A DNA stretch of 64,000 nucleotides from contig JADFWU010000007.1 in NCBI GenBank assembly GCA_015234045.1, forward strand, positions 1 through 64,000. The letters run 5' to 3'. The notes beneath the pieces are model-generated. The model ran no database searches. It was not told the DNA's origin and saw only the letters and a list, made by a program, of their open reading frames with translations. Of the stretch, positions 3,594 to 23,106 are shown piece by piece. The position numbers and the translations under genes were made by a program. The first letter of the stretch is position 1; every line of letters begins with the position of its first letter. The DNA is from Magnetococcales bacterium. Lineage in GTDB: Bacteria; Pseudomonadota; Magnetococcia; Magnetococcales; JADFWU01.

Positions 3594-5122
3594 CCCCTGA
3601 AATCGCACTGCCTTTGATGCTGATTACGCCTATCCTTGGTGGGTTGCTAATCGTTGCCGCTGGACGTCATCCCAACCTGAGAGAAACGATCACCCTGGTC
3701 ACTGCGGTGAGCCTGTTTCTGATCACAGCGTTCTTGACACCTCATATTCTTCATGGCGCACTGCCTGAACATGTTTTGGTCGAGATGATGCCTGGTATGG
3801 CGCTGACTTTGAAAGCCGACCCCCTGGGTATTGTCTTCGCACTGGTCGCCTCTATTCTCTGGATCATCAACTCCCTTTATTCGATCGGCTACATGCGTAA
3901 GAATGGGGAGAAGAACCAAACCCGCTTTTACCTCTGTTTCGCCCTGGCACTGGCCAGTGTGATGGGTATCGCGCTGGCGGGCAACATGTTGACCCTCTTT
4001 ATTTTCTATGAGGCGTTGACCCTGGTCACCTACCCATTGGTTACCCATGCGGGTACAAAAAAGGCAAAAAAAGCGGGCCGCACTTACCTGGGGATTCTGC
4101 TGGTCTCCTCCATCGGTTTCCAGATGCTTGCCATGATCTGGACCTGGTCCATTTCCGGCACGTTGACCTTTAGTCCTGAAGGCATTCTTGCTGGCCATGT
4201 CGAAGGCCCTATGGTCCTGATCCTGTTAGCCCTTTACATGTTTGGCATCGGTAAAGCCGCCTTGATGCCCCTACACCGCTGGTTACCCGCAGCCATGGTC
4301 GCACCCACACCTGTGAGTGCGCTCTTACATGCTGTTGCCGTGGTTAAAGCCGGTGTTTTCACCGTGGTTCGGGTGGTAATGCATGTGTTTGGACTGGACT
4401 TGCTCAATGCAACATCCAACAGTAATTGGCTTTTGTATGTCGCGTGTTTCACAATCATAACCGCCTCCGTAATCGCGCTGCATCAGAACAATCTCAAACG
4501 CCGTTTAGCCTACTCCACGGTAAGCCAACTCTCCTACGTCGTTCTGGGTGCCGCTATTCTGGCCCCTATTTCCATGGTCGGCGCGGTCATGCATATCGTG
4601 GTACACGCTTTTGGTAAAATCACCCTGTTCTTTGCAGCTGGTGCCATTTACACAGCCCAGCATAAAACATTGGTTAGCGAACTGGATGGCATAGGCCGCA
4701 TTATGCCTTGGACCATGGGTGCATTTACGATTGGTGCTATCTCAATGGTGGGCCTACCGCCTACAGCGGGATTTCTCAGTAAATGGTTTATTCTTCAAGG
4801 TGCCATGGAGACCGGTCAATCCATTGCCGTAGTTGTGGTGGTCATCAGTACACTGCTCAATGCAGCCTATTTCCTGCCAATTGTCTATCGTGCATTTTTC
4901 CTGAGCCCCACTGGCAACAGTGACACTACTGGCGACACCCCAACACAGCATGTTATCAGCGAAGCACCACTTCCCATGGTGATTGCTCTCTCCACAACAG
5001 CGGCCTGCACACTTTTACTATTCTTCTACCCGGAAGTGCCGTTAACATTGGCGACCATGCTGACAGGAACCACCAACACTGTATCCAGTGGTGTGATTAA
5101 CCTGGCAATGGAGACATTCTGA
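3590..5122 (+). CDS. NuoL/M-like antiporter subunit (second copy)
   Basis: This 510-residue membrane protein is of the same proton-conducting family. Key features are LTLFIFYEALTLVTYPLV (helix 5 glutamate), GIGKAALMPLHRWLPAAMVAPTPVSALLHAVAV around residues 220-252 (the NuoL/M-type quinone-module signature) and VVHAFGKITLFF. The motif APTPVSALLHA resembles NuoL and MrpA more than MrpD. It may therefore take the role of the missing NuoL-like part of MrpA. It ends exactly where the small gene at 5122 begins. Confidence 0.88.
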   Translation: MTPEIALPLMLITPILGGLLIVAAGRHPNLRETITLVTAVSLFLITAFLTPHILHGALPEHVLVEMMPGMALTLKADPLGIVFALVASILWIINSLYSIGYMRKNGEKNQTRFYLCFALALASVMGIALAGNMLTLFIFYEALTLVTYPLVTHAGTKKAKKAGRTYLGILLVSSIGFQMLAMIWTWSISGTLTFSPEGILAGHVEGPMVLILLALYMFGIGKAALMPLHRWLPAAMVAPTPVSALLHAVAVVKAGVFTVVRVVMHVFGLDLLNATSNSNWLLYVACFTIITASVIALHQNNLKRRLAYSTVSQLSYVVLGAAILAPISMVGAVMHIVVHAFGKITLFFAAGAIYTAQHKTLVSELDGIGRIMPWTMGAFTIGAISMVGLPPTAGFLSKWFILQGAMETGQSIAVVVVVISTLLNAAYFLPIVYRAFFLSPTGNSDTTGDTPTQHVISEAPLPMVIALSTTAACTLLLFFYPEVPLTLATMLTGTTNTVSSGVINLAMETF

Positions 5123-5373
5123 TGGAAAATCCTGAACAATTGCATTGGCTGGTACGACCAAAAACCATTCGATTGCTGTGGATCATTCTGATCACTGTTC
5201 TCGTCATTGTTACCTTGCTGGATCTGCTAATCCATGCTCATCCCCATTTTGGACTTGATGGCACCTTTGGCTTTTTCTCCTGGTTTGGATTTGCGACTTG
5301 CGTTGCCATGGTATTCGGTGCCAAAGGCTTGGGCATGGTGCTGAAAAGAAAGGACACCTACTACAATGGTTAA
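5122..5373 (+). CDS. Small membrane protein of the antiporter operon
   Basis: This 83-residue protein has two predicted membrane segments, at about residues 20-37 and 49-70, separated by a histidine-rich loop (LIHAHPHFGLDG). It lies between two large antiporter subunits. It overlaps the preceding stop by one base and the following start by eight bases. The tight coupling suggests it is part of the antiporter complex. I do not recognise a named family, and no function can be read from the sequence. Confidence 0.75.
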   Translation: MENPEQLHWLVRPKTIRLLWIILITVLVIVTLLDLLIHAHPHFGLDGTFGFFSWFGFATCVAMVFGAKGLGMVLKRKDTYYNG

Positions 5374-7054
5374 TCTGCCCCCACCTGGTGTGCTACTGGC
5401 TCTTGTCGGCTTGGTACTGCTGTTTATCCGCTCGCCTCAGTTACGCAAAGCCATCATTCTGATCAGTCCGTTAATCGTACTGGCCACTATTTGGTCGATT
5501 CCAGACAATACGGTTTCGTTGGGTACGCACTTCCTGTTTTGGGATCTGGTTCCAGTACGAATGGATCCGCTTGGGCGCTTGTTTGCAACGATCTTTTCTC
5601 TGATGGCATTTGCCGGTGGACTGTTTGCTCTGCGCCAAAAACGGGTCAGCGAACTCTCTGCGGCTTTTGTTTATGCCGGTGGCGCGATTGGAGTTGCTCT
5701 GGCTGGCGATCTGATCACCGTGTTCATTTTCTGGGAACTGATGGCCATCGCCTCTACCGTGGTGATCTGGTCTGCGGTTACGCCTGAGTCCTACAAAGCG
5801 TCCATCCGCTATTTGATGCTCCATCTGCTTGGTGGTGTCATCCTGATGGCTGGCATCATCGGTCATGTGGTGGAACACGGAGATATTGCGTTCCAGTCCA
5901 TGTCACCCGACTCTTGGAGCCATATTCTTATTTTAGTTGGCTTCCTGATCAACGCGGGCGCACCGCCTTTTTCATCCTGGCTGTCTGATGCCTATCCTGA
6001 AGCGTCGTACACTGGCACGGTATTTCTTTCCGCATTCACCACTAAAACGGCTGTGTATGTTCTGATTCGTGGATTTCCCGGCACTGAAATCCTTATCTAT
6101 CTCGGACTATTCATGGTCTTTTACGGCATTGTCTATGCGTTGTTGGAAAACGACATGCGCCGCATCCTGGTTTACAGCATCATCAACCAGGTTGGATTCA
6201 TGGTTGTCGGCATCGGTATCGGTACTGAAATGGCTTTGAATGGTGCAGCGGCTCACGCCTTCGCCCATATCATCTATAAAGGGCTGCTTTTAATGTCTGC
6301 GGGTGCTGTACTGTACCGCACCAATGAACGCAAATGCAGTAACCTGGGTGGCCTCTTCCAGAGTATGCCCCTGACCACTATCTGCGGTACGATCGGTGCC
6401 TTGGCGATCTCCTCGTTTCCGTTTACGTCGGGATTTGTGAGCAAATCCATGATTGCCACAGCCGCAGCTGAACAGCATCTGGCCTTTGTCTGGTACCTAC
6501 TGGCCGCTGCATCAGCAGGTGTGTTTCTCCATGCGGGTATCAAGTTTCCCTGGTTTGTCTTTTTCCAAAAAGATTCTGGTATGCGTCCCAAAGATCCGCC
6601 TTGGAACATGAGTGCGGCAATGGTTCTATTCGCTGCATTGTGCATCGGTATTGGCTGTTATCCTGATCCGCTGTACGCCTTGCTGCCTTATGCGACCAAC
6701 TATGTACCTTATACAGTGCCTCATGTGGTCAACATGTTGCAGTTGCTCCTATTTGCCGGATTGGCTTTCTTCCTACTACTGCCGTGGATGAAACGGACCT
6801 TGACCATCACCTTGGATCTGGATTGGCTCTACCGCCGACTGTTCCCGCGTGTTTGGGTTGTCGGCAGTGCGGCCTTTATTGTCTACCAACAACGCGTATC
6901 TGCATTCACTGAGCTGATGGTATACAGAACGATCATGAGTCTTAAACGTATTCATGGTGGCAAAGGATTGCTCTCACGTAATGTCAGTACCAACAGCGCA
7001 AGCATTGGTGCACTGGTGTTGCTCTGTGTCTGGCTTGTCTCTTTTTACAAATAG
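5366..7054 (+). CDS. NuoM/MrpD-like antiporter subunit (third copy)
   Basis: This 562-residue polytopic protein is the last gene of the operon. Family marks are LITVFIFWELMAIASTVVIW (helix 5 glutamate), INAGAPPFSSWLSDAYPEAS around residues 194-213, KTAVYVLIRGFPG and HAFAHIIYKGLLLM. The motif PPFSSWLSDAYPEAS replaces the usual PLHMW/PLHRW pattern and is typical of Mbh- or Mrp-associated NuoM-like proteins. A C-terminal extension of about 60 residues follows the last core helix. A terminator lies 43 bases downstream. Confidence 0.88.
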   Translation: MVNLPPPGVLLALVGLVLLFIRSPQLRKAIILISPLIVLATIWSIPDNTVSLGTHFLFWDLVPVRMDPLGRLFATIFSLMAFAGGLFALRQKRVSELSAAFVYAGGAIGVALAGDLITVFIFWELMAIASTVVIWSAVTPESYKASIRYLMLHLLGGVILMAGIIGHVVEHGDIAFQSMSPDSWSHILILVGFLINAGAPPFSSWLSDAYPEASYTGTVFLSAFTTKTAVYVLIRGFPGTEILIYLGLFMVFYGIVYALLENDMRRILVYSIINQVGFMVVGIGIGTEMALNGAAAHAFAHIIYKGLLLMSAGAVLYRTNERKCSNLGGLFQSMPLTTICGTIGALAISSFPFTSGFVSKSMIATAAAEQHLAFVWYLLAAASAGVFLHAGIKFPWFVFFQKDSGMRPKDPPWNMSAAMVLFAALCIGIGCYPDPLYALLPYATNYVPYTVPHVVNMLQLLLFAGLAFFLLLPWMKRTLTITLDLDWLYRRLFPRVWVVGSAAFIVYQQRVSAFTELMVYRTIMSLKRIHGGKGLLSRNVSTNSASIGALVLLCVWLVSFYK

Positions 7055-7329: not shown

Positions 7330-8628
7330 TTATCTTTGGTCTGGGGAATCGGCATACACTGTTGGGAGATCCTGCCAACGGGTGGTATAGGCGGGTGTTT
7401 TGCGCCGCGCTGAAGAACCCCATACAGGTTGAGACGAAATACCTTCAGCACCGAACCGGATTGTACCTCTTCCCCATCGTCCGTTGAGTGCATCCATGGC
7501 ACGCATCAGGTGCGTAGATTTTTCTCGTCCTGTGTGGTCGGTGAACAGATTGGGCTGATAGGATTTTATCGAGATCAGATCAAGCAACAGAACACCGGCT
7601 TTCTGATACCGATACCCCGGTCGATAGATGCGTGTGAGTCCAGCATGGGCATGGTGAATAAGTGTATTGGTATCACTTGATGGCTCAGTCAGAGAGAGCG
7701 TCTGAGCATTTTGATAGCACAACTCCGGCCGATCAAATCGACTGGTGGAAAGAAAGACAGTGAGCGTTGATGTTAACAAACCATGATGACGCAGTTTCTC
7801 CGCTGTTTTGGCCGTAAAAGTGGCCACCGCCTCCAGCAGCGGTTCCAGTTCGGTCACTCTTTGACCAAAAGTACGGGAGGTGGTGATTGACTTTCGCGGT
7901 GGTGGACATGTCTCCATAGTCAACATCGGCTTGCCCTGTAGTTCAAGAACAGTCTGTTGTAAGACCACATTGAACCGCTTTCGAACCCATGTCGGGCAAA
8001 CCCCCCGCAGCTGCGCTGCCGTGGTGATGCCATACGCGGTCAACCGCTTTGACCAACGACGACCAATACCCCAGACATCCCCTATTTCAGTCATATTCAA
8101 GGCGCGTGTCTGTAATGCAGGATCAGTGAGATTCAGCACACCACCGGTTTGTGGATGTTTCTTTGCCAAACGGTTGGCAACCTTGGCCAGGGTTTTGGTT
8201 GGTCCGATGCCGACACATGTGGGAATACCGGTCCAACTGTGTATGGTTTGCCGTAATTGCCTACAAAATGCCGTCGCCTTGGATGGCTTGAAACCGGATA
8301 GATCCAAAAACGCTTCGTCAATGGAATAGACTTCAACAGCGGGTGCTTGCGCTTCTAAAATCTGCATCACACGCGCGGACATGTCCGCATAAAGCGCATA
8401 GTTGGATGACAACGTCACCACTCGGTGAGTATTGACCAGCGCACGAATCTTATACAACGGATCGGCCATACCGATACCCAACGCTTTGGCCTCATTGGAG
8501 CGGGCCACGGCACAGCCATCATTGTTTGACAGTACGATTACCGGCCAACCTTCCAGAGCGGGATTAAAAACCCGCTCACAGGAGACGTAAAAGTTATTGC
8601 AATCCACCAATGCAAAGGAGGGTGTCAT
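7330..8628 (-). CDS. umuC: DNA polymerase V catalytic subunit UmuC
   Basis: This 432-residue Y-family translesion polymerase copies past damaged bases when bound to cleaved UmuD. The first catalytic aspartate is in [13 protein letters not shown] (D9). The second metal site is [10 protein letters not shown] (D104, E105). The finger motif [16 protein letters not shown] follows the family exactly. The thumb and little-finger regions and the DUF4113-like C-terminal tail ([21 protein letters not shown]) are present. I chose the ATG at 8628, which overlaps the umuD stop as ATGA; the open frame continues upstream inside umuD. Confidence 0.95.
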
Positions 8629-9071
8629 GTCGCTATTGGATAGAGGGCATGGATGGCATTGGTCACCACACCCCAAATCGTTAACGCATCCTCCCGCGCA
8701 ATTCGAATGGGTGGATAGTCTTTGTGCGCCGATTCCAACCAGACGGTATCTCCTGCCCGCCGCACTATTTTTACGGCCAAAGAGCCCTCCAGAGCCGCGA
8801 CAACCACCATACCGTCAGCAGGATCAATGGAACGATCCACAACCAGAATATCACCATTCTGAACGCCCATTCCGCTCATGGAACAGCCCTCCACACGCAC
8901 AAAAAATGTAGCGGATGGATTACGAATCAGATGACGACTGATATCAAGACGCCCTTCAACAAAATCATCCGCCGGTGATGGAAAACCCGCTGGTACCCCC
9001 TCAATGAACCGACCGATCATCTCTTCAACCTCATTGTATATATCCTTTTCTACTCCGAAGAGAACATCCAT
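8625..9071 (-). CDS. umuD: UmuD translesion polymerase subunit / self-cleaving S24 peptidase
   Basis: This 148-residue protein has the [17 protein letters not shown] start of mature UmuD. The self-cleavage site is most likely A28-G29. The catalytic serine is S64 in EGCSMSG and the lysine is K101 in LAVKIVRR. Cleavage is normally stimulated by RecA filaments and turns UmuD into the form that supports UmuC. It is translationally coupled to umuC. Its start lies inside the 3' end of the upstream gene, with a 41-base overlap. Confidence 0.95.
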
Positions 9072-9894
9072 CAGAAAGGCCAGAATTGAAGGGAACCACC
9101 TGAGCTGGGATCAATGCCCGATCTGGCCGAAAACAAACGGTAGATTCCGCCTGTTGCAGGATCATTTTTGCAAATAATCGCACCATCGGTTGATGTGTCT
9201 TTCGATTCGGGGCAACCACCTCCATCACACCTGTCTTAGCCTCATAGGTAATCACTGCGTCTAATACCGGACGATGGGCACGAACTGTCCGTTTGCTCTG
9301 TTTACGTTCAACATGTTTATCGGACGTATCTTCACGATAGATAACCGCCTGAATCAATCGGTTCTGTTGGCCTTTTTTGCGCATGCTGTCCCGTTCATAC
9401 AGTTCAAGAAAAGCATTGCTGACATGGAACAGTTTTTTAATACCCTCTTCAAACGCTATACGGTGGTAGTGATTGTCACCAATGGACAATCCCTTGGAAC
9501 CAATAAAGCGGGACCAGCGCGGCCCTTGTCGGTTGAGTTCCGCATACAGAACATCCTCAGCACGACGAAATCCAGTCAGATCATGCAAAAACAACCACAA
9601 CGCCCGATCATGGCGGCTTTCCAAGTCAGGCACGATCTGTTGAGAACCGGCAATAGTGCGTATGGCATCTTGTCCTGGGCTGGATGCCAGGTTAAAAATA
9701 CGCTCGAAATCCGAGTATCCGACTGATCGGACCTCTTCACTCAGTTGATTGATACTCTTTAAAAGCCGCTGTGCTACCAGCCTCTGTTTTCCCTGCCAAG
9801 CCCTGTTTTGGATGGACAGTACATTGCGTTTATTGGAAGCGCATTGCAGCGGATTGAGCGAGGTCCGACGACATTCACTGGCTAAAACAGGCAT
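9031..9894 (-). CDS. Uncharacterised protein at the head of the umuDC operon
   Basis: This 287-residue soluble protein has no signal peptide or membrane segment. I do not recognise a family. The N-terminal half is rich in Arg and Gln; the middle contains WLFLHDLTGFRRAEDVLYAEL; the C-terminal third has a conserved-looking core, VITYEAKTGVMEVVAPNRK followed by VRLFAKMIL. The ATG at 9892-9894 has a GGGAG ribosome site eight bases upstream; two GTG codons just before it are possible alternatives. It is the first gene of the umuDC transcription unit and faces the XRE/ImmA pair. Confidence 0.7.
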   Translation of the reverse strand: MPVLASECRRTSLNPLQCASNKRNVLSIQNRAWQGKQRLVAQRLLKSINQLSEEVRSVGYSDFERIFNLASSPGQDAIRTIAGSQQIVPDLESRHDRALWLFLHDLTGFRRAEDVLYAELNRQGPRWSRFIGSKGLSIGDNHYHRIAFEEGIKKLFHVSNAFLELYERDSMRKKGQQNRLIQAVIYREDTSDKHVERKQSKRTVRAHRPVLDAVITYEAKTGVMEVVAPNRKTHQPMVRLFAKMILQQAESTVCFRPDRALIPAQVVPFNSGLSDGCSLRSRKGYIQ

Positions 9895-10046
9895 CACCAC
9901 TACTCCCTGCTTGTCATTTATTCCGGAACAGATTAAGATATTTTCCGTAAGCAGAACTTATTTTGAGATCTTTCAGGTCCGCTGTCAACTACTATTTATA
10001 TCTGGTTCCGGAACAATGTAGAAACAGAGCACTGGAGTGAATACGC
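9895..10046. promoter_or_regulatory. Divergent promoter region with two TTCCGGAACA operators
   Basis: The gap between the divergent units contains two identical 10-bp sites: TTCCGGAACA at 9921-9930 and at 10006-10015. Both centre on the palindrome TTCCGGAA. The first lies about 27 bases before the start of the umuDC unit, the second about 32 bases before the XRE gene start. TTATAT at about 9996 could be a -10 element for the XRE gene, which would place the second operator at the transcription start. By inference these are binding sites of the XRE repressor. Confidence 0.6.
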
Positions 10047-10367
10047 ATGGCATCACCGATTGGAGAGAAAATTCGCGGCCTACGCAAACAGAAGGGGTAT
10101 ACCCTGGATCAACTGGCAGAACTGTGCGACACCAGTAAAAGTCGTATCTGGGAATTGGAAAACCGGGACAGCGTCCGCCCCACCGCCAATAAGCTTGGCA
10201 AGCTATCCGAGGCGCTGGGCGTGACGCTGGAATACCTGATGAGTGATGATAATAGCCCACCGGAGGACGAAGTGGTGGACCAGGCATTTTATAGGGAATA
10301 TAAAAAAATGCCCACAGATACCAAGAAAAAAATCAGGGAAATGGTGCGAATCTGGAGTGATGAATAA
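10047..10367 (+). CDS. XRE-family transcriptional repressor, DdrO/ImmR-like
   Basis: This 106-residue protein has an N-terminal helix-turn-helix (residues 7-65; GYTLDQLAELCDTSKSRIWELE is the recognition region). A short C-terminal helical segment ends in MPTDTKKKIREMVRIW, a layout seen in repressors that are cleaved or inactivated by a partner ImmA/IrrE peptidase. It probably binds the two palindromes in its own promoter region and represses both itself and the umuDC unit. Its stop overlaps the start of the peptidase gene by one base. Confidence 0.85.
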   Translation: MASPIGEKIRGLRKQKGYTLDQLAELCDTSKSRIWELENRDSVRPTANKLGKLSEALGVTLEYLMSDDNSPPEDEVVDQAFYREYKKMPTDTKKKIREMVRIWSDE

Positions 10368-11218
10368 TGGACCAACCGCGCTCGCCGGTAGATTGGGCCA
10401 TGTTCGTCAATCAAGTCCTGGATCAAGCCTTTGGGCGAGAGCGCCATCCTATCAGCGTGATTGAAACTGCACAGCTTTTTTCAAAAATCAAATTTCCAGA
10501 CGAATCCATCTCCATTGTCCAAGGTGCCGACCTGCCTGGATTTCAAGGCATGCTGATACCAGATCCAAGAGGCCGAAAAGGCTGGGGCATATTTTTTAAT
10601 CATTCTGTCAAACCCAGAACACGGGTACGTTTTACCCTGGCTCATGAGTTCGGCCACTATCTACTTCATCGCCATCAGAAACCAGCGGGATTTCAGTGCC
10701 GTTCCGACACCATGCCGGAGTATGGTGATGTGGCATCCCGACAGGAACATGAAGCCAATCTATTTGCCTCTCATCTCTTGATGCCGCTCCATGATTTTCA
10801 AAGCCAAATCAGTCCTGATGAGATGACTGATTTGAACATGCTCTCTTTCATGGCCCAAAGATACGGTGTCTCTTTGATGGCGATTATCAGGCATTGGCTG
10901 TCTTTTACTCTTCATCCAGCGACTCTGGTTATTTCCCGCGAAGGATATATTCTCTGGTCAATTTCCAGTCAACCAGCAATCCAAACCGGAATGGTATTTC
11001 CTGTCCATAATGATCCAGTTGCCATTCCTGTTGACGCGTTAGCAGCCCATCCGCATATGATCAACTATCCTAAAGAGGGCGCATTAATGTCCGCTGGGAC
11101 TTGGTTTTCAAATCGGGACGTGGTTGAAATGGTGATCTACTCCGAGCGATATGATCTGGTCATTTCACTGTTGCTCTCACTGTCTGACCAGCCTGACAAT
11201 CCGGCTGTCAGATCATGA
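10367..11218 (+). CDS. ImmA/IrrE-family zinc metallopeptidase
   Basis: This 283-residue protein carries the zinc motif HEFGH (residues 93-97) in RFTLAHEFGHYLLH. A third ligand is expected from the downstream QEHEANLFASHLLMP motif (E127 or E129). Members of this family (COG2856) cleave a cognate XRE repressor, as ImmA does in ICEBs1 and IrrE does in Deinococcus. It is coupled to the XRE gene and so is its likely partner. The C-terminal 90 residues may sense the inducing signal. The 3' end overlaps the convergent gene by six bases. Confidence 0.88.
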   Translation: MDQPRSPVDWAMFVNQVLDQAFGRERHPISVIETAQLFSKIKFPDESISIVQGADLPGFQGMLIPDPRGRKGWGIFFNHSVKPRTRVRFTLAHEFGHYLLHRHQKPAGFQCRSDTMPEYGDVASRQEHEANLFASHLLMPLHDFQSQISPDEMTDLNMLSFMAQRYGVSLMAIIRHWLSFTLHPATLVISREGYILWSISSQPAIQTGMVFPVHNDPVAIPVDALAAHPHMINYPKEGALMSAGTWFSNRDVVEMVIYSERYDLVISLLLSLSDQPDNPAVRS

Positions 11219-14376: not shown

Positions 14377-15429
14377 TTAAAAGGTGAACTCAAGGGGTTC
14401 ACGACGTGCGGCCTTAAGCACAAAATCAGTTATGAAATCCGCAACATCAATCGTATCATCCAGAAGCTTTTGATGCGCTGACAGCAACGAATCATCAGAT
14501 TTTTTCAACATATCATCCAGAATTGATTGCAGATTAGGCCAAGAGAAATCCCGCAGATTGTGTACAAGACCGTAGCGACTCTCCTGCTCATCAGTATAAC
14601 CGCGTCCTGTCTCAGCGGCATAGATGGCCGGGACACCCAAAACAGCACACTCTGAGGCCATGGTTGCACTTTCACCCACAAAGAGGCGACAAAAAGCCAT
14701 CAAGTGATGAATCTGCGCGGGATTACCGTGAAAAGCATGGTCAGACAAATCATCAGGCAGCGGCGTTTCCGAGGAGATGATAACCTTACCATATTGAGAG
14801 AGATGGTTGGTGCAACGCCTCAATAATTCAGGTGTCCACCCACTGTCAAACTGATCATGATTGGCCTGCCAGGAGACCGTACGGATAAAGAAGGTTGCAC
14901 CCTCTTGAGCCAATCCATTATCCAGGGCAATCTGCCGGTCGGGGTGAAAACGGCGCGGATGAAGATAGCTCAGTTCATGATACCCTGGATAACGTAGATG
15001 CCGTTTGGGTAACCAGGCTTGATAACAGCGCGGAACCACAACCATCGATGCAAACGGATAAGTAATGGCATTGGAAAGACGGGCATTCTCGGTATCATAA
15101 AACACTACCGAAGGCACCCCGGTAAGGCGACCTACCTGAGCAATGGACACACCAGCAATTCCGGTCATTACGTCTGGCTTAAAAGCGCGCACCACCTTCC
15201 ATAAGGCCCAGTTGCGGGTAATCAGCTCACGAGCCAGAGCGACAAACCCACCACCGCCAAGACTGGAAAGCACTTGGTGTTTCAGTCCCAAGGCATCAAG
15301 AAGATCGGTAGCAATCTCTTTGTGACGGGAGGTGATAAGCACCTCATGGCCGCTTGCCTGCCATTGCTGAATGGGGTGACGGAAAAAATGAACATGGGCA
15401 GGATGAACAATATCAACGATGATTTTCAT
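14377..15429 (-). CDS. DUF354-family predicted glycosyltransferase (GT-B fold)
   Basis: This 350-residue protein begins with IVDIVHPAHVHFFRHPI, the typical opening of DUF354 proteins. A conserved glycine-rich GGGGFVALARELI segment follows. In the second half, LFVGESATMASECAVLGVPAIY matches the nucleotide-sugar binding region of GT-B enzymes such as MurG-like proteins. It probably transfers or processes a sugar of the surface glycan. It lies 31 bases upstream of the asnB-like gene on the same strand. Confidence 0.8.
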   Translation of the reverse strand: MKIIVDIVHPAHVHFFRHPIQQWQASGHEVLITSRHKEIATDLLDALGLKHQVLSSLGGGGFVALARELITRNWALWKVVRAFKPDVMTGIAGVSIAQVGRLTGVPSVVFYDTENARLSNAITYPFASMVVVPRCYQAWLPKRHLRYPGYHELSYLHPRRFHPDRQIALDNGLAQEGATFFIRTVSWQANHDQFDSGWTPELLRRCTNHLSQYGKVIISSETPLPDDLSDHAFHGNPAQIHHLMAFCRLFVGESATMASECAVLGVPAIYAAETGRGYTDEQESRYGLVHNLRDFSWPNLQSILDDMLKKSDDSLLSAHQKLLDDTIDVADFITDFVLKAARREPLEFTF

Positions 15430-15474
15430 AGGCGGCTCACTCTTTATCTAATTCAAAAAGTTGCAACAGAACCG

Positions 15475-16431
15475 TTAACCTGCGCTAAAGCTTTCTATTT
15501 TTTTTCCTTCAAAAAAACTATGCATTAAGAAAATACCAACGATGTTTATCAATCTCCCAGCCACACCACAGAAAATTATCTCAGCAGTACCAACACCAAA
15601 TGGACCCAAGAAAAAAATACATATCCCTTCAGAAACCCCTATACCTTGGACTGTAAGCGGGATCAAAGATGATAAAAAAGCCACAGAAGTGGTGAAAAAG
15701 ACAGGAGTAAATGGCACATCACTCTGTACGCCACGCAACAAAAACAATAAAGCATAAGTTGCCGCAGCCAACCTAACAAAACTAATAATCAGGTTGACTA
15801 ACACTATTCTTCGGTTGTGGTGCTTGAAATACATCAGCGTTTTGAGGACCTGCTCAATCTTCTCTTTTAATCGACCACGGAAACGATCGACTATAAACTC
15901 ATGAACTCGGGTGTTAAATGAAATAAATACGGAAAAGCACAATACTACAAAGATGACAAATAAAAGAAACCAATCCGTACCATAATTTCCATACAAAATA
16001 AAGCCAATTACTGCACAGAAAAGTGTCGCAAAAAAACTGATCAACTTATCCATTATTACGTATAATAGAGAGTCGGAAAGAGGTATGGACCGCTGTAACA
16101 TATGAGAAATTGTAAGATCACCCAACTTTCCTGGCAACCACAATGATAGTGATTGAGAGACAAAAAATGCCTTGAAAAATTGAGCCTTACCTACCTGTCC
16201 CCTACGAGGTGCCCAATAAAAAAGATAGAGATTGATGCCACCCAAACATAGTGAACCGGTAGTAAGAAGAAACCCCAAAAACACCCAAGACGATGATATA
16301 TTATTGATCAAGTATTTCCATTCATCAATGGAACTCAATGATACTATATAGGCCATCAACCCAACTGATGCCATGAGGCGTCCGATAAAAATCAATCGGT
16401 TGCGTTGTACCCGTGATAAATTAATCATCAT
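15475..16431 (-). CDS. Lysylphosphatidylglycerol synthase transmembrane-type protein (UPF0104)
   Basis: This 318-residue protein has about eight membrane segments. The conserved patterns FFVSQSLSLWLPGKLGDL (residues about 89-106) and FLSSLIPLTVQGIGVSEGI (about 253-271) are hallmarks of the LPG_synthase_TM family. Such proteins are common in glycolipid and cell-envelope clusters and may flip or modify lipid-linked intermediates. The start immediately follows the stop of the radical SAM gene upstream. The sequence around it is more AT-rich than the flanking housekeeping regions. Confidence 0.82.
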   Translation of the reverse strand: MMINLSRVQRNRLIFIGRLMASVGLMAYIVSLSSIDEWKYLINNISSSWVFLGFLLTTGSLCLGGINLYLFYWAPRRGQVGKAQFFKAFFVSQSLSLWLPGKLGDLTISHMLQRSIPLSDSLLYVIMDKLISFFATLFCAVIGFILYGNYGTDWFLLFVIFVVLCFSVFISFNTRVHEFIVDRFRGRLKEKIEQVLKTLMYFKHHNRRIVLVNLIISFVRLAAATYALLFLLRGVQSDVPFTPVFFTTSVAFLSSLIPLTVQGIGVSEGICIFFLGPFGVGTAEIIFCGVAGRLINIVGIFLMHSFFEGKKIESFSAG

Positions 16432-17826
16432 CTATTCTTTCCCAAGCAGGAAAAACACTTCCCGCTTTAGCCTATGGTAAAGTCGCATAGGATCCTTACG
16501 CAATAGACGCAATCCAAATAGAAACCGTTTTTTCTGTACCAAACTGTAGAACTTTTTCAACCATGCGTACAACTCCTTACGGTTTAATGTTTTTGACACA
16601 ACTACCGCTCCGTTGAGGACATGTTCTGGCTCCTCAAGTGAGGCAAGAATATCCAGTGATGACCAATCAAAATCATCATCTATTTGAATTATTCCACCTT
16701 TCACAGCATCATCCCATATGTCAGTCCCTGGGTAGGGGATTAGCAGAAACACTTGGAGCAAATGGATTGGGAGCTTTTTAATAAGATCATACGTCTCTTG
16801 AATGTGTTCATTGGTTTCATAAGGAAAACCAATAATAAAGCTGGCTTGAATGTTAATCTTCGCCTTATCCAGAAGCTCAACAGCCCGGATAATCTTATCC
16901 ACCTTATAGCCTTTATTTATATATTCCAATGTAGTTGGTGACCCGGATTCCAACCCCATTGAGACATCAGTAACGTTCATACTTTTCAAAATCTCAATCG
17001 ATTTTGGGGTAATATGGTCGGCACGAGTAGCAACGATGTATTTGAAATTATCAATGAGCCCATTCTCATTCAGAATTTTGGCTATAGCCTTTAATCTTCT
17101 TCGATTTAGAGTGAACAAATCATCCCATATTTTGATTGTACGAATATTAGGATAATGCTCTAAATGTTTTTTAATATACTGAACAATATATTCAGGAGAA
17201 AATACTCTAACATTATCATGTGAAGGGGTAGCACAAAAACGGCAATAAAAAGGACAACCCCGACAAGTCATGATACATAATATGTCATCGTTCAATTTGT
17301 CCATATGCAGCAATGGAATTGGCAATTCATTAAGATCTTGTATAACGGGGGGGCGGCCGGTATTCCGAACAGTACTGGTTTTTTCATCTCGGAAAATCAT
17401 GCCTGGCAACTGTTCCAGACACTCTTGGCTCCAACCTTCATCATACTGTAGTAACAATTCAGGGAAGCTTTGTTCAGCTTCACCAATAACACCAACATCC
17501 ATATCTGGACTAAGATCTTCTGGCCGAATTTCCACATGGGGGCCACCAACGACAACATGGATTCCGCGCCGTTTACAGTTTTGAGCCAGCTCTAACACCT
17601 TGCTCCACACAGCTGTATAGGCTGAAATTCCTACAATATCCGGCTGAAATTCAGCCAATGTTGCTTCATCGGCAAGACCAATTTCAAAGGTAATGCCCGG
17701 AATTTTTTCTCTTGCTGATTCAACGAGATAAGAAAGCCCCAAGGGTGCTGTAACCAACTCCCCAGAGGCATTATAATTGCACGGACATGTCAAGAGAACT
17801 TTAAGGTCAGCAGCACTTTTTTTCAT
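16432..17826 (-). CDS. Cobalamin-binding-domain radical SAM protein
   Basis: This 464-residue protein has an N-terminal B12-binding-type Rossmann region (about residues 8-140; QPDIVGISAYTA and VVVGGPHVE). It is followed by a radical SAM core with the 4Fe-4S motif C191-C195-C198 in CRGCPFYCRFCATP. The radical SAM core continues with SMGLESGSPTTLEYINKGY and ASFIIGFPYET. Such enzymes often perform methyl transfer or other radical chemistry on unactivated carbon. In this cluster the substrate could be a sugar or lipid; the sequence does not say which. Confidence 0.88.
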   Translation of the reverse strand: MKKSAADLKVLLTCPCNYNASGELVTAPLGLSYLVESAREKIPGITFEIGLADEATLAEFQPDIVGISAYTAVWSKVLELAQNCKRRGIHVVVGGPHVEIRPEDLSPDMDVGVIGEAEQSFPELLLQYDEGWSQECLEQLPGMIFRDEKTSTVRNTGRPPVIQDLNELPIPLLHMDKLNDDILCIMTCRGCPFYCRFCATPSHDNVRVFSPEYIVQYIKKHLEHYPNIRTIKIWDDLFTLNRRRLKAIAKILNENGLIDNFKYIVATRADHITPKSIEILKSMNVTDVSMGLESGSPTTLEYINKGYKVDKIIRAVELLDKAKINIQASFIIGFPYETNEHIQETYDLIKKLPIHLLQVFLLIPYPGTDIWDDAVKGGIIQIDDDFDWSSLDILASLEEPEHVLNGAVVVSKTLNRKELYAWLKKFYSLVQKKRFLFGLRLLRKDPMRLYHRLKREVFFLLGKE

Positions 17827-17866
17827 ATTTTAGAATTCTTTCCATGTAGGCGCAACCTACTAATTA

Positions 17867-18472
17867 TTAAAAGAAATCCTGCCATTCAGAGTCTTTTTTT
17901 GATTTGTTGATTGGTTGCTCAGGATATGTAAGTTGAATCCCACCCAGATAAGGTGATTTCTCATCCAAATTTTTGTCGGAAAAACGGCCAAGAACATAAT
18001 TTATCCAGGAGTCACGTCGGGCGATTAGAAATTCCCGTTCCTTCCCTGCATTTCGTGCACTTAAATAACGCTGATAACGTACAATATCGCCCAACAAGGT
18101 TCGAATCCGAAATACACGAAAGGTAAGATAATTACCTATTTGGTCCAAGAACAAATGGAGAAAAACTGCCAAAAAAACATAATAAAACAAAAAAATTTCG
18201 GAATAGACCGCGTAACAAGCTAGAAAAACAAGGGTTTCATAGTTATGAAATATAAGAATTCGTGGACCAAAATAGTCCCATGTCACATAGGATTTAATGA
18301 GATGGTTTAATGGAGTTATTTTGCGGGAATGAAACCACTGGAAAAGAATGTGATCAGAGTCAATGAGTACCGAGGCAGCAATGAAGACCGCTGCCTCGGT
18401 TGAAGATGACCACATCAAAATGGGTAATGCCCCTATCATCCCCACCGCTAAGTGTTGCTTAGCTTGCATCAT
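17867..18472 (-). CDS. Integral membrane protein with His/Asp metal-binding pattern
   Basis: This 201-residue protein has four or so membrane segments. It has spaced residues H7, D38-SDH, HNYE and HLFLDQIGNYL, reminiscent of the membrane-bound metal-dependent hydrolase-like families (DUF457/YdjM-like). A hydrophilic C-terminal tail of about 60 residues ends in polar residues. It lies between two radical SAM genes and starts one base from the stop of the gene upstream. I cannot assign a reaction. Confidence 0.55.
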   Translation of the reverse strand: MMQAKQHLAVGMIGALPILMWSSSTEAAVFIAASVLIDSDHILFQWFHSRKITPLNHLIKSYVTWDYFGPRILIFHNYETLVFLACYAVYSEIFLFYYVFLAVFLHLFLDQIGNYLTFRVFRIRTLLGDIVRYQRYLSARNAGKEREFLIARRDSWINYVLGRFSDKNLDEKSPYLGGIQLTYPEQPINKSKKDSEWQDFF

Positions 18473-18473
18473 A

Positions 18474-19904
18474 TTATTCCGTATTCATCTTTTGACCTTC
18501 CTCAACGGGGATACTTTTATTCGCGTCCCGCTTGTCAACGATATCCAAATCATAGTGCATCTGCATGGACTCTCCTTGATATTCGCGCACAAACTCTTCT
18601 TGACTCATGAGGCGACCTGAATGGGTATCAAGAACGCCATACTTTTCTTCCCGTGGCCGAGTATTGAAAATTCGACAACCAGCACAGTTAAGGGGAATAG
18701 GCTGGTTAGAACGATTGATTAATTTACGGGTCTGGACATATGGCTTGGAATTCCAGATCTCCTTCATCGGTGTTTCAATCAGATTACCAAATGCCCTCTT
18801 GCGTAGTTGAGGCCTATTGTTGGAGATAAAAACAGCACAGCACTGCATAACCAACCCTTTCATCATCACATAGGGTTCCATCCAGGCCATACACATTTCA
18901 GGTCCAGGGCAGTCGGATAAATCATTGGTTCCCGTGAAACTTGCAAACCACTTCCTGGCTGCGGCCCGTTCACTTCCCTTTTGAATAATTTCTTTTGGAA
19001 TCTCTTTTTGTTCCAGATGTTTGATATCATCGAACACGAGCATGCGGTTGAAATTAATTCGTCCTCCAGGTCCAAAATCAGTCCTTGGGGCAAAATCAGC
19101 TATATGATCAATAAACTGAGGAATTTCATTGACATTGTTGTTCATCACTGTATACCCAAAAACAATCTCGGGCAGCATACTGTTCTTCTTTTTCTTCATA
19201 TCAAGAAAACGTTGAATATTGGTATTGACGTTATCAAACTTACAGCCAACTTTTATGGCCTCATAGGTCTCTTTTGTGGCCGCGTCAAATGATACGACCA
19301 TGCCGTCAATCTTCATGTCCACCAATTCTTCAATCATCTCCTCGGTCAAATCACTCAAATGATCAACCTGGTAAACCATTACCTTACGTTCCTTCAAATA
19401 GCGCAGCATTTTCATGCAGTCTTTATTGAGAAACGAAGAGCCCTCACCAACCAGACTGGCCCATTTTAACTTGGGAATGGAGTCCATCATTGTTTTTAAT
19501 TCATCAAACGTAATGTTTAATGCAGGCTGATCACGAACATCCCACATGGTATTTTCACAGTGAATACACTTTTTATCACACACTGTTGTCAGCTCGACCT
19601 CAATCTGGCCGGGCATACGTACCAATTGAGGGAAACGCCGGTAAAGCCAGCCAAAAAAGAAGTATACAAACCCAGCAGAGCCAGGGCCAACCGGGTTGAA
19701 CAACTTCACCCATAGAAAGTTATAGGCTGCTTTAAGCCCCTGTGTACGGGCAATGTGACCGGACATCCTTAAATATTTAAATCCGACCGATGAAATCATT
19801 AACACAACAGCCCATAGGCCGAAGCGCCGCCGTGTAAAAATGAGTGGTGGAGGAATAAATTTTTCTATAATACGGTCAAGTAAAGATAAATCAGATTGTC
19901 GCAT
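18474..19904 (-). CDS. Radical SAM/SPASM protein with N-terminal membrane-associated region
   Basis: This 476-residue protein has hydrophobic stretches at about residues 28-45 and 76-90, then a radical SAM core with C109-C113-C116 in TTVCDKKCIHCENTM. The C-terminal part has SPASM-like cysteines (CPGPEMCMAW, MQCCAVF, NCAGCRIF). SPASM proteins bind extra iron-sulfur clusters and modify peptides or sugars. I chose the ATG at 19904 because the longer frame would overlap the glycosyltransferase upstream by 83 bases. It is part of the glycan operon. Confidence 0.85.
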   Translation of the reverse strand: MRQSDLSLLDRIIEKFIPPPLIFTRRRFGLWAVVLMISSVGFKYLRMSGHIARTQGLKAAYNFLWVKLFNPVGPGSAGFVYFFFGWLYRRFPQLVRMPGQIEVELTTVCDKKCIHCENTMWDVRDQPALNITFDELKTMMDSIPKLKWASLVGEGSSFLNKDCMKMLRYLKERKVMVYQVDHLSDLTEEMIEELVDMKIDGMVVSFDAATKETYEAIKVGCKFDNVNTNIQRFLDMKKKKNSMLPEIVFGYTVMNNNVNEIPQFIDHIADFAPRTDFGPGGRINFNRMLVFDDIKHLEQKEIPKEIIQKGSERAAARKWFASFTGTNDLSDCPGPEMCMAWMEPYVMMKGLVMQCCAVFISNNRPQLRKRAFGNLIETPMKEIWNSKPYVQTRKLINRSNQPIPLNCAGCRIFNTRPREEKYGVLDTHSGRLMSQEEFVREYQGESMQMHYDLDIVDKRDANKSIPVEEGQKMNTE

Positions 19905-19908
19905 TACG

Positions 19909-21123
19909 TTAAGTTCCGTCTGTAAGAGAGTGAAGGAGATTCGCGTAGTGGCGACCAAACCGGGGCCACGAGTATCGCTGGGCAATGTCAATAGAGGCTT
20001 TTTGCATTATAGAGGACACTGGACCAGAAAAATAGTTCAAAATGAGCTCAGCAATATCTTCGTCAGAAGCATCAAGTGGAAGAAGAAAGCCATTTTGGCC
20101 ATGCTTCACAATATCTGAAGGCCCGCCTTTATCAAAGGCTAGCACGGGCACGCCACACGCATTAGCCTCAGTCAAGGACAGGCCAAAGGAGACATTTTTT
20201 TCGAGCAGAATACCGAGCTCTGCAATATTATAAAAGGAAAAAATAGCTTCAGGGTCAGATACAAATCCACAAAAAACCACATGGTCTTCCAGTTGGTATT
20301 CTCTGGTAATCTGTTCCAGTTTTCCTTTTTCAGGACCGTCACCAACCAACAGCAATAATACGCGTACATTGGATTGAACAACAATATTCAATACATTCAA
20401 CACACGATCTAGGTTTTTTTTTCCAACAAATTTCCCTGAAAAAATAATGATTTGAGAGTCATCTGCCAATCTATTTTGAATTTTTTCAGGCAATTCCAGT
20501 AGCTTTTTCGGACGGGCTACCCCTGGTGGCAACACACTAACTTTTTTTGCTCTGTAGAGTTGCTCAACCCATTTTTTATAATCTTTCGAAAAGACGACAA
20601 TATGGTCTGCCCAACCAACAACAATGCGATCAAATGGCCGATATAGCCATGAGAATATTGGTACCAAGTGTCGAAAAACAGATTTTCCTCCAGCCAAAAC
20701 CGTCTCTTTCTGGACATCATAGGCAAAGCGCGGCGGCTGAAAACAGTAATAAAGGCATTTACCTCTAAACAATATTTTATAAAAAAACATGGCAGGCACC
20801 ATATTTTCAGTATAAAAGCATATAACATCAGTGTTTTTAGGTATATTTGTCAGAAGAAATGGTGAAAGGATAAAATCTAACAAACTTTCCAACAGTGGAT
20901 TCTTGAAACGAAAATTAAGAATCCGGGGAAGCCCTTTCAATTGAACACGCTTATCCAAGTGAGGGAGAAACTCATCTGGAAATTTATTGGTCAACACTGT
21001 GTTTTCAAAACCTACATCGGCCATTTCCCGAAAAAGGTTGAAGAGTACCGGTTCTCCTCCACCATGATGTAGCTTAAATTGCGGACAGATATGACAAACC
21101 TTCAATGGCCGTTTTTCAAACAT
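19909..21123 (-). CDS. Glycosyltransferase family 4 (GT-B)
   Basis: This 404-residue protein starts with KVCHICPQFKLHHGGGEPVLFNLFREM, the usual N-terminal layout of GT4 enzymes with a glycine-rich loop. The C-terminal domain shows FSGKFVGKKNLDRVLNV, VLLLLVGDGPEKGKLE and the donor-binding E-x7-E region GLSLTEANACGVPVLAFDKGGPSDIV. It should transfer a hexose from a nucleotide or lipid donor to the growing glycan. The ATG at 21123 gives an eight-base overlap with the epimerase gene; a longer frame exists. Confidence 0.88.
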   Translation of the reverse strand: MFEKRPLKVCHICPQFKLHHGGGEPVLFNLFREMADVGFENTVLTNKFPDEFLPHLDKRVQLKGLPRILNFRFKNPLLESLLDFILSPFLLTNIPKNTDVICFYTENMVPAMFFYKILFRGKCLYYCFQPPRFAYDVQKETVLAGGKSVFRHLVPIFSWLYRPFDRIVVGWADHIVVFSKDYKKWVEQLYRAKKVSVLPPGVARPKKLLELPEKIQNRLADDSQIIIFSGKFVGKKNLDRVLNVLNIVVQSNVRVLLLLVGDGPEKGKLEQITREYQLEDHVVFCGFVSDPEAIFSFYNIAELGILLEKNVSFGLSLTEANACGVPVLAFDKGGPSDIVKHGQNGFLLPLDASDEDIAELILNYFSGPVSSIMQKASIDIAQRYSWPRFGRHYANLLHSLTDGT

Positions 21124-22144
21124 TAAAGATCCTTTTATTTTCCAGAACCCAATCATGTAATCGCTTTAATCCAACCTGTGGCGAAATAGTTGGTTCCCAG
21201 CCTAACTGTTTCTTGGCAAGACTCGTATCGCTGACAAAATATTTCAGATCTCCATGACGCTCTCCGCCAAATTGATAATCAACTTTCCGCCCTAACACTT
21301 CCTCAAGGTAGTCAATACATTCCAGCAAAGAAATTGTATTTGTTTCGCCACCACCAATATTGTAGATTCCCGGTTGCTGTTTTTCATAAAATGCATGGAA
21401 TGCAGTGCAAACATCGGTTGCAAAAACAATATCACGTAGTTGTTTTCCATTTCCGAATAGAGTAATGGCTTTTTTCCGTATGGCACTGATGGTAAAATGT
21501 GCGGCCCAGCCATGATCTTCGCCGCCAAATTGATTTTCCCCATAGAGTCCGGTCAACCGGAAAGTGGCTGCTTTGACCCCATAGGAATGAATATAGGCCA
21601 TCAGGTAATCCTCACCCGACTTTTTTGATGCATGCAATGGAGTTAAAGTCCCAGTCATCACCGGATGGCTCTCTGATATGGCAACCGGATCTCGAATATA
21701 ACGTTTTTTTTCTTCATGCAAGGTATCGTTGATGCCAGTTCCGTAGATATGGATGGTACCGCATGTAGCGACTGGAATTTGATGAATCCGCGCTGCTTCC
21801 AATACGTTGAATGTCCCCAAGGCATTGGTAGTAAAATCTAATACAGGGTCAGTTACCGACAGGGTCATAGCAGGTTGTGCTGCCGTATGAATGATATAAT
21901 CGCAACCATCGGAAGCGGTCAGCAACTCATCAAAATTCCGAATATCTTGAGTAAGAATCTCAACACCAATTGAGTTCAACAAATCCCGATTGTAGTTTCT
22001 GGCCAGTTCAACATTGAAACCGGTTCGCTCCAACTCATATTTTGTCATATTATCGTATGAGATGACATCCCACCCCATCTTTCGATAGTATGTACATACA
22101 TGAGATCCTAAAAAACCACACCCACCCGTTACCATGACCTTCAT
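21116..22144 (-). CDS. NAD-dependent sugar epimerase/dehydratase (extended SDR)
   Basis: This 342-residue protein carries the NAD-binding motif TGGCGFLGSH (residues 6-15). IIHTAAQPAMTLSV and TNALGTFNVLEAA match nucleotide-sugar epimerases. The expected catalytic YxxxK reads LHASK, with Leu at position 170 in place of the tyrosine and K174 kept. The enzyme may therefore use another base or may have changed activity. The stop overlaps the downstream glycosyltransferase slightly, and the start overlaps the nucleotidyltransferase by four bases. Confidence 0.85.
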   Translation of the reverse strand: MKVMVTGGCGFLGSHVCTYYRKMGWDVISYDNMTKYELERTGFNVELARNYNRDLLNSIGVEILTQDIRNFDELLTASDGCDYIIHTAAQPAMTLSVTDPVLDFTTNALGTFNVLEAARIHQIPVATCGTIHIYGTGINDTLHEEKKRYIRDPVAISESHPVMTGTLTPLHASKKSGEDYLMAYIHSYGVKAATFRLTGLYGENQFGGEDHGWAAHFTISAIRKKAITLFGNGKQLRDIVFATDVCTAFHAFYEKQQPGIYNIGGGETNTISLLECIDYLEEVLGRKVDYQFGGERHGDLKYFVSDTSLAKKQLGWEPTISPQVGLKRLHDWVLENKRIFNV

Positions 22145-22869
22145 ATGTTTTCCTCACTATACTGAATTTCAGATTGTGTATTAATGTTCTTATAGCTTGT
22201 ACCGATAGAGAATGAACGAACATCGTGTCCTGCGTCTATAGCGCACTGGATTAAATCTGGAAATTCTTTTTCTGTCCGTTGATGGCTAATCGGTGTGTAC
22301 GGAATAAATTCAAGAATCCCATTGCGAAACAAACAATTACCTGTTCCCTGAATATTATTCAAAGGACGCGGTGGTTTTTCGATCAAACGAAAAATTTTAT
22401 TGTCTTCCCCTTGAAGAATCCCATATGTTTTGGACACTTCGGACCTATCTTTAGGAATTGTGACACCACATACTGAAAACAGGTTATTATCCTGAAAATA
22501 ATCAAGCATTTCTTTGTGACGTGCACCGTGCATAACCTCATCACCCAAAAATGTCATGAAGTCAGCACCATCCAAAGCTTCTGAAGCCGTCTCAATAGCA
22601 TGAACCAAACCTTTCCGTTCCTGCTGAATAACGTATTGGATTTTTGCCCCCTGATAATGAATTCCAAATTGATTTATGATGTCTTCAGCACGATACCCGA
22701 CGACAATTATAATTTCGGTCAATCCAGTCGATATGGCACAGTCCAGGCTATAAGATATCAACGGCTTGCCTTTGAAAGACAGCATGCACTTGTTGGTATT
22801 GACAGTCCGCTCTTTGAGGCGACTTCCCCGCCCACCGGCCAAGATCAACCCTTTGATCTGTCTAGACAC
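22141..22869 (-). CDS. Sugar-phosphate nucleotidyltransferase
   Basis: This protein of about 242 residues carries the nucleotidyltransferase signature GLILAGGRGSRLKERT near the N-terminus, with NKCMLSFKGKPLISYSL following. It activates a sugar-1-phosphate (or sugar alcohol phosphate) as a nucleotide derivative. The GTG at 22869 is preceded by GGAGG four bases upstream and is preferred; an ATG at 22887 would add six residues. It is coupled to the epimerase gene and probably opens this sub-operon, since 220 bases without a gene lie upstream. Confidence 0.85.
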   Translation of the reverse strand: MSRQIKGLILAGGRGSRLKERTVNTNKCMLSFKGKPLISYSLDCAISTGLTEIIIVVGYRAEDIINQFGIHYQGAKIQYVIQQERKGLVHAIETASEALDGADFMTFLGDEVMHGARHKEMLDYFQDNNLFSVCGVTIPKDRSEVSKTYGILQGEDNKIFRLIEKPPRPLNNIQGTGNCLFRNGILEFIPYTPISHQRTEKEFPDLIQCAIDAGHDVRSFSIGTSYKNINTQSEIQYSEENI

Positions 22870-23106
22870 ATTACCTCCGCTTACCATTCTTTACAATTTC
22901 AAGAGACAGCATAAAAAAAACCTGTTCTGTCGCAAACCTTCGAATCAAATAGTAGAGACCTCTTATAGTGATTTCGACTCAAAATTAGCGTTGTTCATGT
23001 TAACATTGACCTTCTCAGAGTCACCATTGCCCCCGATCGTCTTTCAGGCAAATCACAGGGCGACCTTCTTGTCTCGTTTGGCTTTCATTAAGAAATCAAT
23101 GGTGAA
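22870..23106. other. Intergenic region inside the glycan cluster
   Basis: About 235 bases without a supported gene separate the nucleotidyltransferase from the radical SAM gene. The stretch is AT-rich and probably holds the promoter for the nucleotidyltransferase-to-11.2 kb unit. I see no clear hairpin or repeat. Confidence 0.4.

Follow-up and report, generated by a model that had tools for sequence, protein, structure and literature searches.

A captured temperate-phage lysogeny switch, CapH/CapP, likely controls a umuDC operon in place of LexA in a Magnetococcales bacterium. In the window (the whole 64,000-nt stretch of DNA analysed), capH and capP on the plus strand lie divergent from X'-umuD-umuC on the minus strand (Table 1), with the capP start overlapping the capH stop and the end of X' only 10 bp from the umuD start. 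The original prediction had described an XRE repressor and a HEFGH peptidase divergent from an unknown gene followed by umuD and umuC, and all of these parts were found in place; the range quoted for them (9031-11218) excludes umuD and umuC. The X' ORF was first called as 9031-9900 (minus strand), and the ATG at 9894 is the better start. UmuC is the sole Y-family polymerase found in the genome (a single PF00817 match) and CapP its one M78 peptidase. On its near flanks the cassette has an antiporter operon and a gene cluster that includes asparagine synthase and DUF354, and no integrase, replication or structural phage genes were found there. Elsewhere in the window, the G+C content of positions 15000-23000 is about 0.41 versus about 0.5, with minus-strand genes beside glycosyltransferase-like and asparagine-synthase genes.

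Table 1. Genes and putative regulatory elements of the capHP-X'-umuDC locus (positions in the window; offsets are relative to the -35 element).
Feature	Position	Strand	Basis
capH (XRE repressor, 106 aa)	10047..10367	+	PADLOC capH 4e-27; PDB 7T5U (CapH N-terminal domain) 1.5e-17
capP (M78 metallopeptidase, 283 aa, HEFGH)	10367..11218	+	PADLOC capP 1.4e-59; PDB 7T5T (CapP) 4.4e-48
X' (287 aa, short member of a phage early-gene family)	9031..9894	-	homologue searches; tree with the G018 X'
umuD (131 aa, without HTH)	8625..9020	-	NCBIfam NF007621 above cut-off; Peptidase_S24
umuC (Pol V catalytic subunit)	7330..8628	-	NF002955 above cut-off
-35 TTGACA of the putative X'-umuDC promoter	9983..9988	-	aligned with L287 and L029
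-10 CAAAAT, spacer 17	9960..9965	-	promoter-motif match
O1, operator-like site GTTCCGGAACCAGATA, offset -26	9999..10014	-	motif match; offset shared with G018
O2, operator-like site GTTCTGCTTACGGAAA, offset +31, just 3' of the -10	9942..9957	-	offset shared with L287 and L029
O3, operator-like site GTTCCGGAATAAATGA, offset +59	9914..9929	-	GTTCCGGAA..ATGA at +60 in G018

By sequence comparison the pair is CapH/CapP and not IrrE/DdrO. The window peptidase is homologous to the solved CapP over nearly its full length (7T5T, residues 14-269), the PADLOC capP match covers positions 17-240 of the 242 of the model, and the HEFGH and downstream E-A columns are invariant in five aligned CapP proteins. 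IrrE (3DTE) gave a marginal match only (E 0.6, against 4.4e-48 for CapP), which rules out an IrrE/DdrO identity, so the Deinococcus analogy originally drawn holds in kind and fails in family. The homology of CapH to its solved counterpart covers the HTH domain, whose recognition helix, TSKSRIWELENRD, is identical in the window, in G018 (a genome of another Magnetococcales family) and in L029. Homologues of CapP are activated by ssDNA, cleave CapH and thereby derepress the adjacent operon (PMC13373217; PMC10904395). In the CapH/CapP pairs known from immune operons such as CBASS (Lau et al. 2022; in PMC13373217), an XRE repressor and a zinc peptidase are likewise encoded divergently from the controlled operon; there the cargo is immune, whereas the window carries X'-umuDC, a translesion polymerase operon, described here with three operator-like GTTC-N8-GATA/GAAC sites. 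A CBASS operon was considered and rejected, the adjacent operon holding no CD-NTase or effector and the neighbours being X', UmuD, UmuC and host genes. Other repressor-peptidase switches differ in what they control: IrrE (PprI) of Deinococcus cleaves an XRE repressor upon ssDNA or damage, but DdrO runs a multi-gene regulon, and the Deinococcus mutagenesis cassettes are LexA-controlled (PMC8072749). ImmA/ImmR of ICEBs1 and MpaR/CI-like of Listeria phage elements (PMC6872733) similarly combine a mobile-element repressor and an M78 protein with divergent early genes, yet they control excision and lysis, while the window switch adjoins a host polymerase operon. A link of DUF955 (M78) to DinB and ImuB-C has been noted, without the arrangement described here (PMC3765255), and no paper linking CapH/CapP with umuDC was found in the open-access literature.

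The gap between capH and X' contains the only minus-strand promoter-like match from umuC to capH (-35/-10 at 9988-9960). As originally predicted, it also holds two identical palindromes: the 64-kb window has exactly two copies of TTCCGGAACA (9921-9930 and 10006-10015; 0.19 copies expected), both in this gap, the full palindrome being TTCCGGAA and the capH-side copy GTTCCGGAAC. The capH-side palindrome lies within O1 and the second copy within O3. A 16-bp motif of the GTTC-N8-GATA type, learned from relatives with the window excluded, has its best match in the gap at O1 (shuffle P 0.008); O2 and O3 match it weakly. Of the two palindromes, one alone coincides with the CapH-X family's operator motif; the other matches a third site, which G018 shares. 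With TTGACA as the anchor, the window and G018 share the offsets -26 and +31 for the first two GTTC-type sites, and the third is at +59 in the window and at +60 in G018. This GTTC spacing was reached in 2 of 200,000 shuffles, and the two gaps are identical at 22 of 32 site positions and at 33 of 76 positions elsewhere. The argument for conserved operators draws mainly on two cassettes, those of the window and G018. Genome-wide, TTCCGGAACA has eight copies, and none of the six outside the gap, five of which are inside long ORFs, was found upstream of another repair gene; inspection by eye likewise revealed no such operator upstream of recA. The layout of a -35 element with GTTC-N8-GA has three matches in the genome, one of them the X'-umuDC promoter. 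Among the sites examined, the candidate operator was thus seen at the umuDC promoter alone, with no sign of a shared repair regulon. The remaining TTCCGGAACA copy (L092, position 1469) precedes a CNNM/CorC-like gene by about 60 bp; the G018 cassette is also flanked by CNNM-like genes, a match that is possibly due to chance.

UmuDC is a classic LexA target, and LexA was found neither at the locus nor in the genome sequence. In agreement with the original prediction, neither CTGTN8ACAG nor GTTCN7GTTC is present in the gap, and GAACN4GTTC and CCTN10AGG were not found between capH and X' either. The last of these, which we take to be the Magnetococcus LexA box, occurs upstream of the umuC loci of G010 and G007 and is absent from the gap in both the window and G018. 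No LexA DNA-binding domain was found in the window genome, which is 93% complete, so that lexA could sit in the missing part; the S24 proteins found in it comprise UmuD and two CI-like repressors. Searches for the LexA domain and for UmuC across the order Magnetococcales together gave 23 other UmuC loci: 20 are LexA-type, one (G018) is CapHP-X' and two are cut by contig ends. With the window included, a LexA-type HTH/S24 gene lies upstream in 20 of the 22 resolvable umuC loci, always on the same strand as umuC (in two loci 2-4 kb away), and the other two are the window and G018. LexA is present in 41 of the 61 relative genomes searched. Like the lexA-umuDC and lexA-imuAB-dnaE2 cassettes, the window has a regulator gene adjoining a translesion polymerase operon; there the regulator is LexA, here CapH/CapP. 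In G010 and G007 (L292, about 3785-5760; L291, about 272-2196), an HTH-S24 protein most like UmuD is encoded directly before umuC, a UmuDAb-like layout.

The co-occurrence of the XRE-peptidase pair with umuDC was looked for in relatives, and the complete five-gene cassette (capP<capH<X'>umuD>umuC>) was found in G018, with flanks unrelated to those of the window. The X' of G018 (283 aa) is short like that of the window, and the two are sisters with 96/94 support. In G018, X' and umuD are some 450 bp apart, with repeats in between, making co-transcription of the two genes less sure there. Part of this repeated sequence (L287, 6414-6860) also seems to recur upstream of umuC. In UmuC trees the window groups with G005, which carries lexA-umuDC, and G018 stays within its own family, whereas the window and G018 group together in the CapHP trees (with L029) and in the X' trees; several of the tree rows have long branches. 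This discordance suggests that the regulator cassette moved relative to umuC, although the rewiring may also have arisen more than once. LexA-free control of umuDC is supported because cassette and operator geometry recur in a second family, at the position that lexA occupies in relatives.

The X family, like its partner Y, has no Pfam or PADLOC name. In Magnetococcales, full-length X (385-415 aa) precedes Y (about 315 aa) and is mostly divergent from capH-capP; X' retains the CENP-N/RdgC-like half at the N-terminus, lacks most of the C-terminal one and is not accompanied by Y. The window X' alone gave no matches in the genome-contig collection, an alignment query being needed. X had no match in the phage collection, one in plasmids and many in IMG/VR. 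Among the 81 X loci examined (80 from IMG/VR, one from a plasmid), CapH is divergent from X in 36, all but one with CapP (35), an M78 gene is co-oriented and mostly preceded by an XRE gene in 32, and 13 have neither. Many are flanked by Sak4-like AAA_24, helicase, serine recombinase and DUF2924 genes, and one adjoins a D5/Toprim primase. On this gene content, CapHP divergent from X-Y is best described as the switch of a temperate phage together with the first of its early genes. The CapP<CapH<X> order of the window is that of the CapHP/XRE-M78 immunity regions of serine-integrase temperate phages (L099-L179), and its promoter layout is also seen in Magnetococcales relatives; the phage loci, however, continue as X-Y-Sak4-helicase or primase, where the window has umuDC and neither Y nor phage genes. 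CapHP adjoined UmuC in none of 80 UmuC loci in viral contigs. Two phage capHP loci have defence-like cargo, namely McrBC genes (L118, 272-5824) and a 1764-aa HATPase/NO VEIN-type protein (L103, 808-7842).

The role of X' can be read from its fold only. An AlphaFold model of full-length X (pLDDT 85) had no significant Foldseek match (RexA was marginal, E 0.097), and the Y model had none in the PDB with E <0.1. The top VIA-align rows for X were CENP-N/Chl4 (Z up to 8.5, residues 55-256), followed by CENP-L/Iml3 and RdgC (Z about 6), RexA not being listed; the CENP-N-like part of the model is the part kept in X'. RexA, which biases the lambda switch, is reported to be related in structure to RdgC and Iml3/Chl4 (PMC11077077). 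The model weakly suggests that X' is a DNA-binding protein of the RdgC/RexA/CENP-N fold group.

X is also associated with damage genes in relatives. The order lexA-umuD-umuC-X-Y-recA is present in Candidatus Magnetaquicoccus inordinatus and a related MAG (L027, 5625-11749; L024, 2368-11374; transposase-like ORFs interrupt the umuC of L024, the MAG locus), and further X-Y operons have an upstream lexA (L026, L031, L032 and L019). In L021 (5546-10122), capH-capP is followed by dinB and divergent from X-Y, so that a second Y-family polymerase is linked to CapHP. That LexA and CapHP take each other's place in front of the same genes supports a damage signal common to both.

Alternative readings of the locus were weighed against control of umuDC by CapH/CapP. 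It could be a decaying prophage immunity region in which capH-capP-X' is a leftover switch and umuDC a chance neighbour outside its control, given that X' is shortened and that Y and every other phage gene, including the Sak4-like ATPase and the helicase that come after capHP-X-Y in phages, are gone. We regard this as unlikely, since a second family also has umuDC behind a shortened X' that is sister to the one in the window, since CapH and CapP are intact and, like the operator positions, conserved, and since the cassette occupies the place of lexA upstream of the relatives' umuDC. There is similarly only a slim chance that CapHP controls itself and X' alone, with umuDC transcribed from a separate promoter that is constitutive or otherwise regulated. 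Most CapHP-X-Y operons elsewhere come without umuD and umuC, and in G018 X' and umuD are separated by repeats, but in the window X' almost abuts umuD, the single minus-strand promoter-like match is upstream of X', and no LexA box was found within the X'-umuD stretch. Ordinary SOS control by an unlinked LexA missed in the draft assembly, which the incompleteness of the assembly and the frequency of LexA among relatives would favour, is very improbable: no LexA-type domain was found, the only S24 repressors are the two CI-like proteins, and the known LexA boxes are absent from the gap, though CCTN10AGG is present at relatives' loci.

Under CapH/CapP control, CapH dimers bound to the predicted sites O1-O3 would shut the X'-umuDC promoter in undamaged cells, and O1, on the capH side, would probably also serve capH autorepression. 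From the behaviour of CapH/CapP homologues we infer that ssDNA made by damage would activate CapP at this locus, that activated CapP would cleave CapH and that the resulting derepression would allow the Pol V genes to be expressed together with X'; conversion of UmuD to UmuD' would still need RecA*. Comparative evidence supports the core of the original prediction, namely LexA-independent release of umuDC from an XRE repressor by a damage-activated peptidase, though with another family than the one named. A further-reaching combination, in which LexA has been lost in the lineage, the captured CapH/CapP switch regulates the only Y-family operon, an ssDNA-sensing metallopeptidase directly gates damage-induced mutagenesis and X' is a phage-derived accessory DNA-binding factor in the Pol V response, is conceivable, but we put it forward tentatively and with some doubt.

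Replacement of lexA by a phage/defence-type protease switch would mean that inducible mutagenesis can be rewired to another damage signal, and the locus offers a natural test of LexA-independent Pol V induction. It would also tie the CapH/CapP of immune operons to both the control of temperate-phage lysogeny and host mutagenesis.
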